A stretch of DNA of 32,526 nucleotides from positions 1 through 32,526 of the forward strand of contig CALMOL010000114.1 of the NCBI GenBank assembly GCA_937871685.1. Direction: 5' to 3'. The notes below the pieces were generated by a model. That model ran no database searches. It worked only from the letters and a program-made list of their open reading frames with translations, and was not told the DNA's origin. The first letter of the stretch is position 1, and the number at the start of each line of letters is the position of its first letter. Positions 12,325-32,294 of the stretch are shown piece by piece. Source of the DNA: an uncultured Verrucomicrobiota bacterium. Its GTDB lineage: Bacteria; Verrucomicrobiota; Verrucomicrobiia; Chthoniobacterales; SZAS-18. The translations under genes were made by a program, and so were the position numbers.

Positions 12325-13764
12325 TCACAACGCCGAGGAAGCGGCAGGCGGACCGACTGGTCCCGAGGCGGCGGTCGAGGCCATGGGCGGGGAAGTTTTA
12401 GGATTGCTCGCGGTCGGCAAGGCGTAGGGTGAGGGCGGCGAGAAGTTTCGCAGCATGCCGATGTCGCGCGTGATGAGGCGAGAGCCGCGGTAGTTGAGCA
12501 GGTAAGCCCAAGCCCACTCGGCGAGCACGCCGAGCTTGTTGCGGAAGCCGACTAGATACAAAACGTGCACGAAGAGCCAAGCCATCCACGCCATGAAGCC
12601 GGAAAGATGCAGCCGCTTGAAGATGGTCGGGAACACCTCGGCAATCGCTCGCGCGCGGCCGATGGTGGCCATCGAGCCCTTGTCGAAATAATGGAAGGGC
12701 GTCGCTTGTCCGCCGGCCACGAGATGCCGGATGTTGGCGGCGGCGCACCGGCCCTGTTGCATCGCCACCGGGGAAAGGCCGGGCAGCGGCGTTCCGCCCT
12801 GGTGGGAGAAGTTGGCGGCGTCGCCCAGAACGAAGACGTTGGGATGGCCGGGAATGGAGAGGTCAGGGTTCACGATGGCGCGGCCGGCCTTGTCGAGCGG
12901 CGCGTCGGAGCCAAGCGTGCGCAGGAGCGGCGAGGCAGCGTTGCCGGCGGCCCATATCACGGTGCGCGACTCGATCCTTTCGCCGTTGGCGATCACCCCA
13001 AACTCGTCAACCCCCGTCACGCGCGTGCCAGTGCGAACTTCGACGCCGATTTCCTCCAACTGCCGGCGGGCGCTCTCGGACAAATCCTCGGCGAAGGCGC
13101 CGAGCACCCGCGGACTGCCCTCCAGGATGATCACTCGCGCCTTGGCGGGATCGAAGTGCCGGAAGTCTTCCGTCATGGAGTAGGTGCCGATCTCCTTGAT
13201 CGCGCCGGCCATCTCGACGCCGGTTGGCCCGCCGCCCACGATGACGAATGTCAGCGCGGCGCGGCGCTCGGCCTCATCGGTGGCCTTCTCGGCCAGCTCG
13301 AAGGCGGCGAGCATCCGCTGGCGGATTTCCAGCGCGTCCTCGACGGCCTTGAGCCCAGGGGCGAATTTCTCCCATTCGTCGTGCCCGAAATAAGAGTGCC
13401 GCGCACCGACGGCGAGAATGAGGTAGTCGTAGTCGAAGACAATGTCGTCGGTGAGGATGCTCTGGTTCTTGAGGTCGATCTGCCGCGCTTCGGCAAGAAA
13501 CACCTCGGTGTTTGATTGCTCGCGCACCACGCTCCGCAGCGGGGCAGCGATCTGCGCGGGAGCGAGCGCGCAGGTGGCGACCTGATAAAGCAGGGGCTGG
13601 AAGGTGTGGTGATTGCGGCGATCGAGGAGAGTCACGCGCACCGGGGCGTCGCCCAAAGCCTTGGCGGCCTCCAGGCCCGCGAAGCCACCCCCGATGATCA
13701 CCACGCGGGGCGGCAGCCCGGGAAGGTCGGCGGCGAGATCGTTCGGTCGGGTCAGGGTTTCCAT
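12325..13764 (-). CDS. ndh: Type II NADH dehydrogenase / NAD(P)-FAD-dependent oxidoreductase
   Basis: RVVIIGGGFAGLEAAKALGDAPVRVTLLDRRNHHTFQPLLYQVATCALAPAQIAAPLRSV; second Rossmann FVIVGGGPTGVEMAGAI; FVLGDAAN; C-terminal amphipathic/hydrophobic segment FMAWMAWLFVHVLYLVGFRNKL. Start ATG 13764. Confidence 0.92.
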   Translation of the reverse strand: METLTRPNDLAADLPGLPPRVVIIGGGFAGLEAAKALGDAPVRVTLLDRRNHHTFQPLLYQVATCALAPAQIAAPLRSVVREQSNTEVFLAEARQIDLKNQSILTDDIVFDYDYLILAVGARHSYFGHDEWEKFAPGLKAVEDALEIRQRMLAAFELAEKATDEAERRAALTFVIVGGGPTGVEMAGAIKEIGTYSMTEDFRHFDPAKARVIILEGSPRVLGAFAEDLSESARRQLEEIGVEVRTGTRVTGVDEFGVIANGERIESRTVIWAAGNAASPLLRTLGSDAPLDKAGRAIVNPDLSIPGHPNVFVLGDAANFSHQGGTPLPGLSPVAMQQGRCAAANIRHLVAGGQATPFHYFDKGSMATIGRARAIAEVFPTIFKRLHLSGFMAWMAWLFVHVLYLVGFRNKLGVLAEWAWAYLLNYRGSRLITRDIGMLRNFSPPSPYALPTASNPKTSPPMASTAASGPVGPPAASSAL

Positions 13765-13853
13765 GTCGGCGGGGAAGGGTGCCCCGAATCGGATCGTGCC
13801 GCCAGCTTGGCCGCGTGTCGCCAGGCTCCCGCGAGGGCATGATGCCGCGTTGC

Positions 13854-13871
13854 TTGTGAAACATTTCACAA
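13854..13871. promoter_or_regulatory. Candidate Rex (redox-sensing repressor) operator
   Basis: TTGTGAAA-CA-TTTCACAA: 8-bp perfect arms around a 2-bp centre, between divergent ndh and nuoD; matches the described Rex operator pattern TTGTGAA(N4)TTCACAA. Confidence 0.8.
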
Positions 13872-15201: not shown

Positions 15202-15207
15202 AATGAT

Positions 15208-15287
15208 TTAGCCACGGAGACACAGAGGTCACAGAGAACTGAATCTTTCTTCCCCATCTCCGTGCGCCCTGTGCCTCTGTGGCAAAA
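15208..15287. repeat. Intergenic inverted repeat, family A copy 1 (nuoD-nuoE gap)
   Basis: GCCACGGAGACACAGAGGTCACAGAG (15211-15236) against CTCCGTGCGCCCTGTGCCTCTGTGGC (right arm): 20 of 26 positions complementary. Confidence 0.85.
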
Positions 15288-15301
15288 ACCTGATCCATCC
15301 A

Positions 15302-15853: not shown

Positions 15854-17275
15854 ATGGTTTCCCTTGTCAAACACCCCCACCCCCGCGAGCGCCGGCTCGT
15901 CTTCAAAAACGTGGACCGGCCCGGCTGGTCGCCGGACATCGACACGTATCTCCAGGACGGCGGCTACGACGACCTGAAAAAGGGCTTCGGCATGAAGCCG
16001 CAGGAGATCGTCGGCGAGGTGAAGACCTCGCAGTTGCGCGGCCGCGGCGGCGCCGGATTCTCCTGCGGGATGAAGTGGGGCTTCATCAAGCCGGACGAGA
16101 AGAAGCCGGTCTATCTCATCTGCAATGCGGACGAGTCCGAGCCGGGCACCTTCAAGGATCGCTACATCATTCACCAGGACCCGCACCAGTTGCTGGAGGG
16201 GATGATCCTCTCCTGCTACGCGGTCAACGCCCGGCTGGCCTACATCTACATCCGCGGCGAGTTCCCCGAGGGCGCGCGCATCCTCGAGCGCGCCATCCAG
16301 GAGGCGCACGCCCGCGGCTTCCTCGGGAAGAACATTCTGGGCTCCGGCTTCGACCTGGAAATCTTCGTCCACCGCGGCGCCGGCGCCTACATCTGCGGCG
16401 AGGAGACGGGCCTGATCGAGTCGCTGGAAGGCAAGCGCGCCTACCCGCGCATCAAGCCGCCGTATTTTCCCGCGGTGCTTGGCCTCTACCAGTGCCCCAC
16501 CATCGTCAACAACGTGGAGACGCTGTGCAACGTGAAGCACATCGTGCGCCTGGGCGGCGCCGAGTTTGCCAAGATCGGACGGCCGAACAACACCGGCACC
16601 CGCATCCTCTGCGTGAGCGGCGACGTGCAGAAGCCCGGCTACTTCGAGCTGGAGTGCGGCGCGGTGACGATGGGCGAGCTGCTCAATGACCTTTGCGGCG
16701 GCCCGAAGCCCGGCCGGAAGTTCAAGGCCGTGATCCCCGGTGGCTCGTCCGCCAAGGTGCTGCGCGCGGACGACACCTACAAGATCAAGGTCAAGCAGCC
16801 CGACGGCTCCATGGCCGATCAGGAACTGAAGTTCGACGACATCGTCCTCGACTTCGACTCGCTCGCCGCCGTCGGCTCCATGGCCGGCTCGGGCGGCGTG
16901 ATCGTGATGGACGACTCGCGCGACATGGTGTGGGCGCTCAACAACATCAACGAGTTCTACGCGCACGAGAGCTGCGGCCAATGCACGCCCTGCCGCGAAG
17001 GCTCGCTCTGGATGAAAAAGATCACGGATCGTCTCGCCGGCGGCTACGGCGTGGCGGCCGACCCGCGCACGCTCAAGAGCGTGGCCGACAACATCGCCGG
17101 CCGGACGATCTGCGCCTTTGGCGAGGCTTGCGCGTGGCCGGTGCAGTCCTTCCTCCAAAAGTTCCCCGAGGACTTCGCCGGGGCCGCCGCCAAGAACGAA
17201 CTGCCGCGCGGCGCCCGCACCGCGCTCGAAGCCCTCAACCCCGCCCTCGCCGCCGCCGCGGCCGAGCGGCATTGA
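15854..17275 (+). CDS. nuoF: NADH-quinone oxidoreductase subunit F (51 kDa, FMN/NADH)
   Basis: LRGRGGAGFSCGMKWGFI; CNADESEPGTFKDRYI; GAGAYICGEETGLIESLEGKRAYPRIKPPYFP; ESCGQCTPCREG. Confidence 0.97.
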   Translation: MVSLVKHPHPRERRLVFKNVDRPGWSPDIDTYLQDGGYDDLKKGFGMKPQEIVGEVKTSQLRGRGGAGFSCGMKWGFIKPDEKKPVYLICNADESEPGTFKDRYIIHQDPHQLLEGMILSCYAVNARLAYIYIRGEFPEGARILERAIQEAHARGFLGKNILGSGFDLEIFVHRGAGAYICGEETGLIESLEGKRAYPRIKPPYFPAVLGLYQCPTIVNNVETLCNVKHIVRLGGAEFAKIGRPNNTGTRILCVSGDVQKPGYFELECGAVTMGELLNDLCGGPKPGRKFKAVIPGGSSAKVLRADDTYKIKVKQPDGSMADQELKFDDIVLDFDSLAAVGSMAGSGGVIVMDDSRDMVWALNNINEFYAHESCGQCTPCREGSLWMKKITDRLAGGYGVAADPRTLKSVADNIAGRTICAFGEACAWPVQSFLQKFPEDFAGAAAKNELPRGARTALEALNPALAAAAAERH

Positions 17276-17297
17276 GAAACCGCGCTATCCTGCCGCT

Positions 17298-17522
17298 ATG
17301 ACCGCCCAGCTTGCTGAACTCAAGAAGCTCTCCGTCGCCGAACGCCTGCTGCTCGTCGAAGACCTCTGGGATAGCATCGCAGAGGATGGCTTCATGCCCG
17401 AGATTACTCCGGAGCTGGCGGCCGAGCTGGACCGCCGCTCGGCGGAGCTAGACGCCAACCCGGCCAACGTCTTCACGCTCGACGAGGTGATTGAACGGGC
17501 GCGCCGCGAATTTCATGGCTAA
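17298..17522 (+). CDS. Addiction module antitoxin-like protein (TIGR02574-type)
   Basis: MTAQLAELKKLSVAERLLLVEDLWDSIAEDGFMPEITPELAAELDRRSAELDANPANVFTLDEVIERARREFHG (74 aa); typical LS..ERL.L.E.LWDSI...L..RL...P pattern. Confidence 0.88.
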   Translation: MTAQLAELKKLSVAERLLLVEDLWDSIAEDGFMPEITPELAAELDRRSAELDANPANVFTLDEVIERARREFHG

Positions 17523-17820
17523 TGCCCTTGTCATTTCCGCCGCGGCCGCCGTCGATCTCGTATCGGCGATTAATTGGTATGAAGGGCAAGAACCCGGTCT
17601 CGGCGAGGCGTTCATCCGTGCTTTCCGCGCCTGTGCCGACGGCATCGTCCGCCACCCGGACCTGCACCCGGTCGTCCGGGGCAAGATCCGGCGGGCTCTG
17701 GTCCGCCGCTTCCCTTACCAAGTGTTCTACCGCGCCGAGGAATCGCGCGTGGTGGTGCTGACCGTCTTCCACTCTTCCCTGAATCCTACCCGTCTCCAGC
17801 GCCGCCTGCGTGGGAGTTGA
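17515..17820 (+). CDS. RelE/ParE-family toxin-like protein
   Basis: MANALVISAAAAVDLVSAINWYEGQEPGLGEAFIRAFRACADGIVRHPDLHPVVRGKIRRALVRRFPYQVFYRAEESRVVVLTVFHSSLNPTRLQRRL; start overlaps the antitoxin stop (ATGGCTAA). Confidence 0.88.
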   Translation: MANALVISAAAAVDLVSAINWYEGQEPGLGEAFIRAFRACADGIVRHPDLHPVVRGKIRRALVRRFPYQVFYRAEESRVVVLTVFHSSLNPTRLQRRLRGS

Positions 17821-17832
17821 CCGTCTTCTCGT

Positions 17833-19518
17833 ATGTCCGCAGATGTTGCCGCTCCCGCTGCTGTCCAGCCCGTCGTCGCCCCGCCGGGCATGGTGAACGT
17901 GCAGGTGGATGGCCGCTGGATCCAGGTTCCGAAGGGCACCCGCGCCATCGAGGCGTGCAAGCAGAACGGCTCCTTCGTCCCGCACTATTGCTATCACCCG
18001 AAGCTTTCCGCGCCGGGCAATTGCCGGATGTGCCTGATCGAGTTCGGCAGCCCGAAGATGGGACCGGACCGCAAGCCGATCTACGGCCCCGACGGCTATC
18101 CGGAGATCTCCTGGATTCCCCGCCCGCAGATCTGCTGCTCGACCGACGTGGCCGAGGGCGCGGCCTACCGCACGCAATCGCCCCTCGTGGACGAGTGCCG
18201 GCGCGGCGTGATGGAGTTCCTGCTCATCAATCACCCGCTCGACTGCACGATCTGCGACCAGGCGGGCGAGTGCCGCCTCCAGGAGTTCTCTATCGACTAC
18301 GGCAACGCCGGCTCGCGCTTCATCGAGGAGAAGGTCAAGAAGCCCAAGCGCGTCGAGCTCGGGCCGCGCGTCACGCTGGACGACGAGCGCTGCATCATGT
18401 GCTCGCGCTGCATCCGCTTCTCGAAGGAGATCGCGCACGACGACGTGCTGGGCTTCACCGAGCGCGGATCGCACACCACGCTCTCGTGCTTCCCGGGCAA
18501 GAAGCTGGAGAACAACTACTCGCTCAACACGGTGGACATCTGCCCGGTGGGCGCGCTCACCTCGACGGACTTCCGCTTCAAGATGCGGGTGTGGTTCCTC
18601 AAGGAAACCAAGTCCATCTGCACGAGCTGCGGCACCGGCTGCAACACCGAGATCGGCTCCCGCGAGGGCAAGGTCTATCGCCAGACGCCGCGCGACAACG
18701 AGGCCGTCAACCAGTGCTGGATGTGCGACTACGGCCGCCTGAACTTCCACTTCCTCCACGACGAGCGCCGGATGACATCCGCGCTCGTCCGCGACGCCGA
18801 GGGCACCCCGCAGCCGCAGCCGCTTGCCAAGGCCATCGCCGCCGCGGCGAATCTTCTGCGCCAGTTCAAGCCATCCGAGATCGCCGTGATTGCCTCCGCG
18901 CGGCAGACCAACGAGGAGCTGTTCCTCACCGCCAAGCTGATCCGTCTCCTCGGCGCGCCGCTCTTCGACATCGTGGGCAGGCACCAGCACGCCGATGGCA
19001 TCCTCGTGTCGGACGACGGCAACCCGAACACGCGCGGCGCGCAGCTGATGAAGGTGTCCGCCGAACATCCCGGCTCCTTCGTCCCGATCATCGTCGGCAA
19101 GGTGAACGACGGCGCGATCAAGGCTCTCGTTTGCCTTTCCGAGGACGCCGTCGAGTTCGGCGCGAAGCCCGCCGCGCTGGCGAAGCTCGGCGCGCTCGTC
19201 ACGGTCAACCTTCAGTCGAACGCGACCACCGCGGCCGCCCACGTTGCGCTGCCGGGCGCGGGCTTCGCCGAGAAGCGCGGCTCGATGATCAACGTCAAGG
19301 GTCGCCTCCAGCGCCTCAACCGTGCCGTCCAACCGCCCGCCGGTGCAGCCGACGATTGGGAAATCCTGCGCGACCTCCTCGCCGCCCTCGGCGGTGGCAA
19401 CGGCTTGTATTCCATCGAGGACGTCTTCAAGCGCATGGCCGCCGAGGTGCCCGCGTTTGCCGGCCTGAGCCTGTCAAAAATCGGCGACCTCGGAGTGCCC
19501 CTGGAGGGGAAGATTTAA
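17833..19518 (+). CDS. nuoG: NADH-quinone oxidoreductase subunit G (75 kDa)
   Basis: N-terminal 2Fe-2S CKQNGSFVPHYCYHPKLSAPGNCRMC; HPLDCTICDQAGECRLQ; CIMCSRCIRFSKE; CTSCGTGC...CWMC; 561 aa. Confidence 0.95.
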   Translation: MSADVAAPAAVQPVVAPPGMVNVQVDGRWIQVPKGTRAIEACKQNGSFVPHYCYHPKLSAPGNCRMCLIEFGSPKMGPDRKPIYGPDGYPEISWIPRPQICCSTDVAEGAAYRTQSPLVDECRRGVMEFLLINHPLDCTICDQAGECRLQEFSIDYGNAGSRFIEEKVKKPKRVELGPRVTLDDERCIMCSRCIRFSKEIAHDDVLGFTERGSHTTLSCFPGKKLENNYSLNTVDICPVGALTSTDFRFKMRVWFLKETKSICTSCGTGCNTEIGSREGKVYRQTPRDNEAVNQCWMCDYGRLNFHFLHDERRMTSALVRDAEGTPQPQPLAKAIAAAANLLRQFKPSEIAVIASARQTNEELFLTAKLIRLLGAPLFDIVGRHQHADGILVSDDGNPNTRGAQLMKVSAEHPGSFVPIIVGKVNDGAIKALVCLSEDAVEFGAKPAALAKLGALVTVNLQSNATTAAAHVALPGAGFAEKRGSMINVKGRLQRLNRAVQPPAGAADDWEILRDLLAALGGGNGLYSIEDVFKRMAAEVPAFAGLSLSKIGDLGVPLEGKI

Positions 19519-19680
19519 GCCGCAAGCTCCAAGCCTCAAGGAAACTCGAAAAAGAAGAAAGCCCGAAAACCCGAAGCGAAATCAATCAAGCGAAGCTCAC
19601 GCTTTCTTTGCTCGAACGCCATCCCCCCGCCTTTTCTTCCTTCCTCCCTTCCGCCTTGCTTGAAGCCTGAAGCTTGATGC
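19519..19680. repeat. Intergenic inverted repeat, family B copy 1 (nuoG-nuoH gap)
   Basis: Left GCCGCAAGCTCCAAGCCTCAAGG; right CCTTGCTTGAAGCCTGAAGCTTGATGC (imperfect reverse complement); pyrimidine-rich stretch before the right arm. Confidence 0.75.
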
Positions 19681-19705
19681 TTTCGGATTTTCTTCCTGTC
19701 CTCCC

Positions 19706-21422: not shown

Positions 21423-21430
21423 TCCCGAAT

Positions 21431-21563
21431 TTCACCACGGAGGACACAGAGATCACCGAGGCCCGACCAGAAAACTTTTGCCGATGATCTCCGCGCCGGT
21501 CCCCACCCCACCTTTCTCCTTCCTCATCTGCCCTCTGTGATCTCTGTGTCCTCTGTGGTTTAA
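21431..21563. repeat. Intergenic inverted repeat, family A copy 2 (nuoI-nuoJ gap)
   Basis: Left ACCACGGAGGACACAGAGATCACCGAGG against reverse complement of the right arm ACCACAGAGGACACAGAGATCACAGAGG: 26/28 identical. Confidence 0.9.
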
Positions 21564-21573
21564 TTTTCGGCGA

Positions 21574-22423: not shown

Positions 22424-22429
22424 CCGAAG

Positions 22430-22570
22430 GCTTCAAGCACCAAGCACCAAGCTTCAAGGAATTGCGCTCCGCGCCCGAGTCCAACCCGCCCCACCCCGCC
22501 ACTTTTCGCAAACTTTCGGCCTTTCCTCTCTTTCTGCCTTCCTTGAAGCCTGAAGCTTGAGGCTCTCAGC
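22430..22570. repeat. Intergenic inverted repeat, family B copy 2 (nuoK-nuoL gap)
   Basis: Left GCTTCAAGCACCAAGCACCAAGCTTCAAGGA; right CCTTCCTTGAAGCCTGAAGCTTGAGGCTCTCAGC. Confidence 0.85.
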
Positions 22571-22582
22571 TCTTTCCTTTCG

Positions 22583-26008: not shown

Positions 26009-26013
26009 AAAGA

Positions 26014-26150
26014 TCCAAGCTTCAAGCCTCAAGTTTCAAGGAAGGCCCGAAACCCCGTAAAATCTCAAGGCGACCCGTCCCGCGCTTTTCTTCCTTGGCC
26101 TCGCTTCTCCCTTTCCGTCCTTCCTTGAAGCTTGAGGCTTGAAGCTTGGA
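26014..26150. repeat. Intergenic inverted repeat, family B copy 3 (nuoM-nuoN gap)
   Basis: Left TCCAAGCTTCAAGCCTCAAGTTTCAAGGAAGG (26014-26045) against right CCTTCCTTGAAGCTTGAGGCTTGAAGCTTGGA (26119-26150): 31/32 positions complementary, the odd one a potential U-G wobble. Confidence 0.95.
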
Positions 26151-26160
26151 CCCTTCCTGC

Positions 26161-29600: not shown

Positions 29601-29804
29601 CTACGCCGGAGCCTGCTCCATGCGTTCCACGTATCCATCGATCTGCGCCTGCAATTGGCGGATTTGCTCGAGTGGTCCCTCGGCCAGCAGGGCGAAATTG
29701 CGCGCGTTCTTCGCGAGCACCTCGTCCCGGAACGATTCCAAGATGCGCCGCATCCGGCCCATCTGCTCGATGGCTTGATAAAGCTGCTCAGGAGTTTCGA
29801 TCAT
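29601..29804 (-). CDS. Small helical protein, partner of upstream nucleotidyltransferase-like gene
   Basis: 67 aa MIETPEQLYQAIEQMGRMRRILESFRDEVLAKNARNFALLAEGPLEQIRQLQAQIDGYVERMEQAPA; ATGA overlap with the preceding gene. Confidence 0.75.
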   Translation of the reverse strand: MIETPEQLYQAIEQMGRMRRILESFRDEVLAKNARNFALLAEGPLEQIRQLQAQIDGYVERMEQAPA

Positions 29805-30244
29805 AGCTTGATGAGAATAAGGCCTTTTCGTCGGCCGGGCTGTCCCCGCACCTGCGCGAAAAATTCGGTCGCCTGCGCAAACGACTCGGCGCCGCTCTTG
29901 GCCACCACCCTATCAAAGCCAAAGCGCCGGCGCACCCGCCGGGCCGCGATGAGGTTGTAGCGGTGGGGTGCCAAGTCGGCGCTGAAATCGTGATCCGCCG
30001 GGACCACCCCGACGAGATCAATGTCGCCCGGATCCGGCTTGGCGGTGACGAAGCTGCCGTCCAGGAGAATCGCCTCGAACAGGCCCGCGGCCCGGGCCTC
30101 CCGCAAGAACTCACCGAAGCGACGCCACAGCTGCGGCCGGAGATCGCTCCCTTGGAAAGCGCCGAACCTCTTGCCAATTTCCCCGGCTGACGCCTCGTGA
30201 ATTCCCGGCGGCAGATGCCCGTTCTGGTCCAAGGGCGGAATCAT
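29801..30244 (-). CDS. Nucleotidyltransferase-fold protein (resembles DUF6932-type)
   Basis: MIPPLDQNGHLPPGIHEASAGEIGKRFGAF...AILLDGSFVTAKPDPGDIDLVGVVP: GS-(x)n-DxD Pol-beta NTase-like signature. Confidence 0.75.
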   Translation of the reverse strand: MIPPLDQNGHLPPGIHEASAGEIGKRFGAFQGSDLRPQLWRRFGEFLREARAAGLFEAILLDGSFVTAKPDPGDIDLVGVVPADHDFSADLAPHRYNLIAARRVRRRFGFDRVVAKSGAESFAQATEFFAQVRGQPGRRKGLILIKL

Positions 30245-30270
30245 GACGAGGGCTGGAGGTTGAGGCCGGC

Positions 30271-30525
30271 TTGACCGGAGGTAAAGCACCCATCGTCGGA
30301 TTGATCACGCGATTGCTTGGATTCCGACAAAGGCGAATCGGGGGCCTGCAATTCCGCGCCGTCATCCTCATGCACGCCGACGCGCTGCCCTCGGCGCGCG
30401 CCGACGAGCGCCTGCCGCGCTACGTGGCGCTCACCCGCACCGAAGACTTCCTGCTCGTCACCGCCACCGGTGAGAAAGGCTACCTGCGTGAGCTGATCGC
30501 CAGCGGCGAGGCCGAGGTGAGCGGA
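30271..30525 (+). pseudogene. C-terminal remnant of a UvrD/Rep-type helicase
   Basis: LQFRAVILMHADALPSARADERLPRYVALTRTEDFLLVTATGEKGYLRELIASGEAEV resembles the UvrD C-terminal core (YVALTR...L.VT.TG); no helicase N-terminal domains upstream. Confidence 0.6.
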
Positions 30526-30527
30526 CT

Positions 30528-31052
30528 GCGGCAGCGCGATTCGTCATCACGGGCTCGGTCCCCCTCACTCGCACCGGCCTGAACGCCGACGCCTCCAGCG
30601 CCGTCGGCTATCCCGCCGCCCGCCTCAACGCCGCCGGCCGTCTCCAAGTCATCTTCTCGCGCGACGCCGAGCGCGCCGAGCTGGGTTACGCCGTAGAGTC
30701 CTCCCCCACCCTCGCCGGCGCGAGCGCCACCTGGATCACCCTCGCCACGAGCACCGGCGGCGTCCCCTTCGTCGTCCAAGCAGGCGCCACCGAGACCGGC
30801 GACGGAACCCTCAAGACCGTGACCGTGCAAGACGCCGCCGGTGCCCCGCACCGCTTCCTCCGCGTGCGCGTGACTGCCCCCGCGGTGATTCAATCGGAAG
30901 GCACCGTAAGGGTGGAGGCCCTCCCCATCATCGGGGAATCCCGGAGCGATCCGTCGCGCACCAAGCAACGGGTTGAATCCCATGGCTTGGCGTGTGGCCA
31001 TGGACGACGGAAGCCCGCCGGGCATCCGAAGGTCCACCGCAAAGCACCATGA
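30528..31052 (+). pseudogene. C-terminal remnant of a large secreted/surface protein
   Basis: Frame without proper start: FVITGSVPLTRTGLNADASSAVGYPAARLNAAGRLQVIFSRDAERAELGYAVESSPTLAGASATWITLATSTGG...VTVQDAAGAPHRFLRVRVTAP, resembling verrucomicrobial C-terminal beta-sandwich segments. Confidence 0.5.
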
Positions 31053-32294
31053 GCCACAAGCGCGAAAAGTTCGTTTCCGCCTCGGATCGGGAAGCCGCGT
31101 TCGTCGCGCAGCGCAACCGCAAGATGGCGCGCTCCTCCCACGCCTACGTGCGCGGCAACACGCAGAAGTTCTACGAATGGCTCGATTCCAGCCAGCGCTC
31201 GGCCGTGCCCGCGGGACCCTCGGTCTGGATCGGCGGGGACTGCCACGTCGGCAACCTCGGGCCCCTCGCCAACGCCAAGGGGGAGATCGCCATCCAGATC
31301 CGGGATCTGGACCAGACGGTGATCGGCAACCCGGCCCACGACTTGGTCCGGCTGGGATTGTCGCTGGCCAGCGCCGCGCGCGGCTCCGACTTGCCCGGCG
31401 TGACCACGGCCCGGATGCTCGAGCAGATGGTCGAGGGCTACGAGCAGGCCTTCGAGGACGTGCAGGCCGGCGCCAAGGGCGAGGTCGCCCGGCCCGAGGT
31501 GGTCAAGATCGCCATGCGCGACGCGCTCCGCCGCAAGTGGCGGCACCTAGCGCGGGAACGCATTGAGGACACGACCCCCGGGATCCCGCTCGGGGAGCGC
31601 TTCTGGGCCCCTGTCCGAGGAGTAAAAGAGCGAGAACAAGCGCTTCTTCGGCCAGGAGAGCGTGCGCCGCCTGGTGACGTCGCTGCGCTCGCGCGATGAC
31701 GACGCCGAGGTGGAGGTGCTGGACGCGGCCTATTGGATGAAAGGGTGCAGTTCGCTGGGCCGGCTGCGCTACGCGGTCCTGCTCGCCATCGGCGACAAGC
31801 GCGGGGAAGTTTGCCTGATGGACGTGAAGGAGGCCGCCCAGGCGGTGGCGCCCCGCGCCGCCGATGCCCAGATGCCCGCGGATAACGCCGAGCGGGTGGT
31901 CGCGGGCGCGCGCCACCTTTCTCCCGCGCTGGGCGAGCGGATGCTGGCGGGCAAGCTGCCGGGCCGCTCCGTTTTCCTCCGGGAGCTCCTTCCGCAGGAC
32001 CTCAAGTTCGAGATCGAGAAGCTGGAGGAGGACGAGGCCATGAAGGTGGCGAAGCTCCTGGCCAAGGTCGTCGGCAAGGCGCACGCCCGGCAGATGAGGG
32101 ACGAGGAGCGGCGCGGGTGGCAGGCGGAGCTGATCCGCAACCGGAGCAAGACGCTGGACGCGCCTTCCTGGCTGTGGGCGAGCGTGGTCGAGCTGCTCGT
32201 GAGCCACGAGGGCGCCTACCTGGAACACTGCCGCCGCCATGTCCCCGCCGCGCCGGCGATGGACCTTCCCCTAGCCAGCGCGCCTCCGCGGTGA
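31049..32294 (+). pseudogene. DUF2252 family protein gene, frameshifted and with in-frame stop
   Basis: First part MSHKREKFVSASDREAAFVAQRNRKMARSSHAYVRGNTQKFYEWLD...WIGGDCHVGNLGPL...RDLDQTVIGNPAHDLVRL...GIPLGERFW; continues in another frame as PLSEE*KSENKRFFGQESVRRLVTSL...DAAYWMKGCSSLGRLRYAVLL...LPQDLKFEIEKL. Confidence 0.82.

Follow-up and report, generated by a model that had tools for sequence, protein, structure and literature searches.

A probable type II toxin-antitoxin insertion between nuoF and nuoG in an uncultured Verrucomicrobiota bacterium, at a junction that holds varied small genes across Chthoniobacterales

The TA pair and its flanking genes

The window analyzed here is a stretch of 32,526 nucleotides (contig CALMOL010000114.1) from an uncultured Verrucomicrobiota bacterium of the order Chthoniobacterales, and two small genes lie between nuoF and nuoG of the complex I operon that it carries (Table 1). 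An earlier note had described them as a TIGR02574-like antitoxin and an overlapping RelE/ParE-like toxin, placed on the nuo strand with 22 bp separating them from nuoF and 12 bp from nuoG; this description proved accurate, with exact coordinates and with profile scores over the cut-offs. The identities of nuoE, nuoF, and nuoG were backed by NCBIfam models, nuoF scoring 471.7 bits against NF010120 (cut-off, 389) and 558.4 bits against TIGR01959 (cut-off, 558.65) and nuoG scoring 444.8 bits against TIGR01973, slightly under the cut-off of 470. The nuoF sequence is 87% identical to that of a genome of the same genus (G002). Both flanking genes are complete, are on the same strand (+) as the toxin-antitoxin (TA) pair, and show no damage.

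Table 1. Features of the nuoF-nuoG junction (positions in the window)
Feature	Position	Strand	Description
nuoF, upstream flank	15854..17275	+	473 aa, stop intact
22-bp spacer, nuoF to antitoxin	17276..17297	+	GAAACCGCGCTATCCTGCCGCT
TATCCT, -10-like hexamer	17286..17291	+	ends 6 nt before antitoxin ATG (leaderless spacing); candidate promoter
Antitoxin gene	17298..17522	+	ATG 17298 to TAA 17522, 74 aa, TIGR02574 / PF09720
8-nt overlap	17515..17522	+	ATGGCTAA; toxin start within antitoxin stop
Toxin gene	17515..17820	+	ATG 17515 to TGA 17820, 101 aa, ParE_toxin (RelE/ParE superfamily)
12-bp spacer, toxin to nuoG	17821..17832	+	CCGTCTTCTCGT
nuoG, downstream flank	17833..19518	+	561 aa

The antitoxin scored 65.0 bits against TIGR02574 (NCBIfam), far above the cut-off of 31.9, and 56.2 bits against PF09720 (Pfam; cut-off, 23.3); a search of the PDB returned no credible relative of it. 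The toxin scored a modest 31.0 bits against PF05016 ParE_toxin (Pfam; cut-off, 23.0). Its resemblance to known ParE structures is a matter of family profile: a profile of 12 toxin sequences matched ParE2 chain 8c26 best (E 7e-12, almost full length) and also matched the ParE chains 5cw7, 5czf, and 6x0a, whereas the single sequence matched PDB ParE weakly (E 0.011). Of the six residues that do not vary across the 12 aligned toxins, five fall within the conserved motifs WYE, P48, R59, and FP66-67, all of which the window toxin keeps. A C-terminal K/R-W position that is conserved in many relatives reads R-L in the window, as it does in some relatives. A single-sequence structure prediction of the toxin was set aside at a pLDDT of 47.

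Judged from its profiles and layout, this is a type II TA pair made up of a TIGR02574 antitoxin and a ParE-like toxin. As in other TIGR02574/PF09720-ParE pairs, an antitoxin above the curated cut-off is adjacent to a ParE/RelE toxin and precedes it with an overlap, and the chromosomal TIGR02574/PF09720 plus PF05016 pairs resemble it in family membership, in the order of the two genes, and in the overlap or contact between them. It differs from them in that most lack close co-directional neighbors on both sides and in that no -35 element precedes it. By analogy with the family, the ParE-like protein would be toxic and the antitoxin would neutralize it. It is possible that the pair is instead decaying or already neutralized, the toxin being weak or inactive and the insertion effectively inert, and the modest ParE_toxin score, the R-L change (though shared by some relatives), and a promoter that seems truncated would all be consistent with this. 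We regard such decay as unlikely, since both reading frames are intact, the conserved toxin motifs are kept, and the antitoxin score is so far over its cut-off.

Elsewhere in the window, palindromic repeat-like sequences were observed in five other nuo gaps (15202-15301, 19519-19705, 21423-21573, 22424-22582, and 26009-26160). They are of two types, a CACAGAG type and a AAGCTTCAAG type, with arms of 46 nt in the nuoI-nuoJ gap and 44 nt in the nuoM-nuoN gap; the nuoM-nuoN element has 98 matching stretches in the genome, many of which come from both arms of one copy. A gene resembling NDH-2 (PF07992, NDH2_C; 12325-13869, -) is divergent from nuoD. A DUF2252 match (PF10009, profile positions 4 to 172 of 392) ends within a frame at 30992-31699 (+) and is followed by an overlapping frame at 31662-32294 (+); a frameshift may have split the gene. 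Scanning the window for Rfam families and tRNAs gave no matches.

Absence of the pair from close relatives

The nearest named contig belongs to a Verrucomicrobiota metagenome-assembled genome (MAG) of SZAS-18 (L077, which is also the contig of G002), and many relatives of the window are labeled Chthoniobacter or Spartobacteria. The earlier note had proposed checking close relatives for the same insertion or an empty site, and the site is empty of the TA pair in both genomes of the same genus: G002 has a clean 12-bp gap between nuoF and nuoG, and G001 has a gap of about 93 bp. A tree built from 119 nuoF/nuoG sequences groups the window, G001, and G002 in one clade with an SH-aLRT of 100. As both same-genus relatives lack the pair and the clade is fully supported, these comparisons indicate that the pair is an insertion, most simply gained in the lineage of the window. 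It is a singleton among the 119 junctions. In a survey of 207 nuo-region loci, no further member of the same TA family was found at the nuoF-nuoG junction; three more matches to the family lie in the flanks, on the opposite strand.

The third-position GC content (GC3) of the two TA genes is 0.773 and 0.735, below the 0.90 to 0.95 of the nuo genes. Other genes of the window range from 0.76 to 0.90, which puts the pair at the low end, and another small gene (29801-30289) is also low at 0.76. The composition of the pair thus fits acquisition but is not proof of it. The TIGR02574/PF09720-PF05016 family has six hits in the source genome alone, and the closest toxin relative within 97 genomes of the order is 48% identical. 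Six plasmid relatives of the toxin were found, all partial and below 50% identity, and no donor was seen among them. When both ends of the insertion were searched for terminal repeats, inverted or direct, only short matches at chance level came up, such as TTGACCGTCTTC (17817-17828), which is similar to CTGACCGTCTTC inside the toxin gene.

The source genome, a single MAG, is fragmented (534 contigs, 89.9% complete, 2.1% contaminated), and the join is absent from any second assembly, so a TA-bearing fragment could in principle have been misjoined into the nuo operon. This is very improbable, as nuoF, nuoG, and the TA pair are all complete and separated by short, operon-like spacers, and a chance misjoin would hardly be so clean on both sides. 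The spacer before nuoG (CCGTCTTCTCGT) is also 12 bp long, exactly like the nuoF-nuoG gap of G002 (CCATTTTCCAAG), which lacks the pair.

Contents of the nuoF-nuoG junction across the order

The nuoE-F-G order had been taken in the earlier note to be normally uninterrupted, which does not hold in this order of bacteria. With an empty junction defined as one of less than 250 bp without any match and all others counted as occupied, the nuoF-nuoG junction was occupied in 48 of 119 cases and empty in 71. Most of the occupied junctions (35 of 48) hold a GxxExxY open reading frame (ORF; PF13366). Another four hold an ORF labeled aspartyl-protease-like, a weak label in that one member matched PF13975 and PF13650 below the cut-off (E 2-3e-4) and another had no match at all. 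Small membrane-type ORFs were found in three, a 23S-IVP (PF05635) in one, and a PIN toxin together with a partner resembling VapB in one (L115; CAIRYQ010000069); three more are long junctions with no assigned content, and the window is the remaining one. In L115, the PIN gene scored 29.0 bits against a cut-off of 23.6, the antitoxin is an RHH match under its cut-off, and the stop of the PIN toxin overlaps the nuoG start (TGATG). Counting all labels, the tree implies 30 state changes in junction contents; the junctions compared include those of related genomes, so the counts are not numbers of independent events.

Long gaps are concentrated at this junction. Of 61 nuoF-nuoG gaps, 17 measure 250 bp or longer, versus 7 of 207 for the G-H, H-I, I-J, J-K, and K-L junctions pooled (Fisher p 1.6e-7), a test that covered loci with flanks, left out D-E and E-F, and treated related genomes as independent. 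The D-E gap is long in 39 of 51 loci, in the examples read because of a BamE-like ORF, and E-F is fused in many genomes. In many relatives, for example, L044 to L056, nuoE and nuoF seem to make up one fused frame of about 650 to 790 aa.

In close pairs of loci, the filler begins directly after the nuoF stop codon, as seen when L223 (12 bp) is compared with L229 (474 bp). Short inverted repeats were observed on the flanks of the GxxExxY ORFs (PF13366) in L044, L045, L046, L059, L061, and others, and at some junctions the start of the GxxExxY ORF overlaps the nuoF stop. GxxExxY-like or IVP ORFs were also seen at nuoK-nuoL (L104, L123, and L124), nuoG-nuoH (L137), and nuoI-nuoJ (L145).

On the sequence comparisons, we interpret nuoF-nuoG as a plastic site in this order, one that takes small accessory genes. 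A stronger reading is that it is a true insertion hotspot, entered independently by at least five unrelated kinds of small genes, among them two unrelated TA families, and this would point to a shared and so far undescribed mechanism of targeting or tolerance acting just after the nuoF stop codon. We consider the chances of this stronger reading to be about even.

Comparable sites have been reported in Escherichia coli, where the mazEF pair in relA-mazG and the yafNO pair in dinB-yafP were described as inserted TA pairs at sites termed plastic; the two operons are undisturbed in other strains, parDE fills the relA-mazG gap in Salmonella, REP sequences occur in folA-apaH, and the mechanism of TA integration and the choice of site were stated to be unresolved (PMC7167474). 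TA modules within operons are also mentioned in the TASmania work (PMC6504116). The window pair resembles relA-mazEF-mazG and dinB-yafNO-yafP in that a type II TA pair occupies a gap between genes of a conserved operon, with intact flanking genes on the same strand, an undisturbed site in kin, and other elements in the gap elsewhere. It differs in lying in the complex I operon, in belonging to the TIGR02574/ParE-like family, and in coming from another phylum. By this analogy, it would be a further case of an operon-embedded TA pair at a plastic intercistronic site of the type of mazEF in relA-mazG, at a site that we did not find described in the literature searched. A search by title and abstract returned no description of a TA pair between nuoF and nuoG, and no mention of TIGR02574 was found in the literature searched.

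Promoter elements and transcription

The 22-bp spacer upstream of the antitoxin contains a -10-like hexamer at a position typical of the family. Of 47 antitoxin leaders, 12 have a TANNNT motif ending exactly 6 nt before the start, as against 0 of 115 nuoG leaders; the motif lies at 5 to 8 nt in 19 of the 47, with a TTG -35 at 16 to 19 bp in 14 of these 19, and each distance outside 5 to 8 nt has 0 to 2 occurrences, with the caveat that a script picked the antitoxin starts and may have misplaced some of them. Shine-Dalgarno-like motifs were present in 1 of the 47 leaders. For the window hexamer, the chance of occurrence in shuffled sequence was 0.002 at a distance of 6 nt and 0.005 at 5 to 7 nt. 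No TTG -35 is located 16 to 19 bp from it, since that position falls within nuoF codons, and a sigma-70 consensus scan of the region found no promoter. We infer from this pattern that the antitoxin promoter is of a leaderless type and was cut short by the insertion. The earlier claim that there is little room for separate promoters is weakened by the hexamer, which, kept at its family-typical place, makes separate transcription of the TA genes possible.

No terminator-like site was detected on the + strand of the nuoF-nuoG interval, and transcription of nuoG to nuoN from an upstream nuo promoter would therefore cross the TA genes, which makes read-through plausible. The suggestion that the pair may be co-transcribed with nuo agrees with this and with the tight, co-directional arrangement, and is tempered by the -10-like element, which would allow separate transcription. 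On the whole, the pair is probably co-transcribed with nuo.

Passenger or partner of complex I

We think it likely that the pair was acquired recently into a plastic nuoF-nuoG site and is a selfish or neutral passenger for which no specific link to complex I is needed. Related bacteria repeatedly carry other small genes at this junction, and for that reason the pair looks like a passenger and not like a purpose-built link between a toxin and respiration. A type II pair would have entered after the nuoF stop and ahead of the nuoG start, leaving the nuo genes undamaged and allowing reading of nuo to continue through it. Expression probably comes from two sources. One would be nuo read-through, in which translation would re-initiate at the antitoxin, 22 nt past nuoF, and the 8-nt overlap would couple the toxin to the antitoxin; the other, weaker source would be the truncated leaderless promoter (TATCCT without a -35). 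Transfer and passenger persistence would then account for the presence of the pair, and, as with TA pairs in general, cells that suddenly lost it would be harmed by the toxin, the longer-lived of the two products.

It was also suggested in the earlier note that TA dose could be tied to respiratory gene expression and that loss of the operon could be penalized. On a rival explanation of this kind, the pair stays in the operon for its function: its dose would track nuo expression, or it would penalize cells that lose or silence complex I. Tight co-directional spacing is indeed rare in the family, in which, by rough gene calls, same-strand genes lie within 60 bp on both sides in 2 of 35 pairs, the window and L172. 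The L172 pair, at about 1430-2040 (G004:C8), was observed between sucB and lpd, co-directional with them; its genome is from the same family of bacteria as the window, and sucB-lpd is also an energy-metabolism operon. Such functional coupling nevertheless seems quite unlikely, since the pair is absent from both same-genus genomes and from all other surveyed junctions, unrelated genes fill nuoF-nuoG in other genomes, the TA genes retain a -10-like element of their own, and their composition is unlike that of nuo. Neither a tie of TA dose to respiration nor a selected penalty for operon loss finds backing; there is no sign of a conserved respiratory role, and a regulatory link with respiration, though possible, has no support here.

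The passenger reading suggests caution in inferring function from operon position, as a TA pair within the complex I operon need not regulate respiration. Close relatives carry the nuoF-nuoG junction empty, filled by a TA pair, or filled by something else, and this natural series allows the ends and preferences of insertion to be compared directly.
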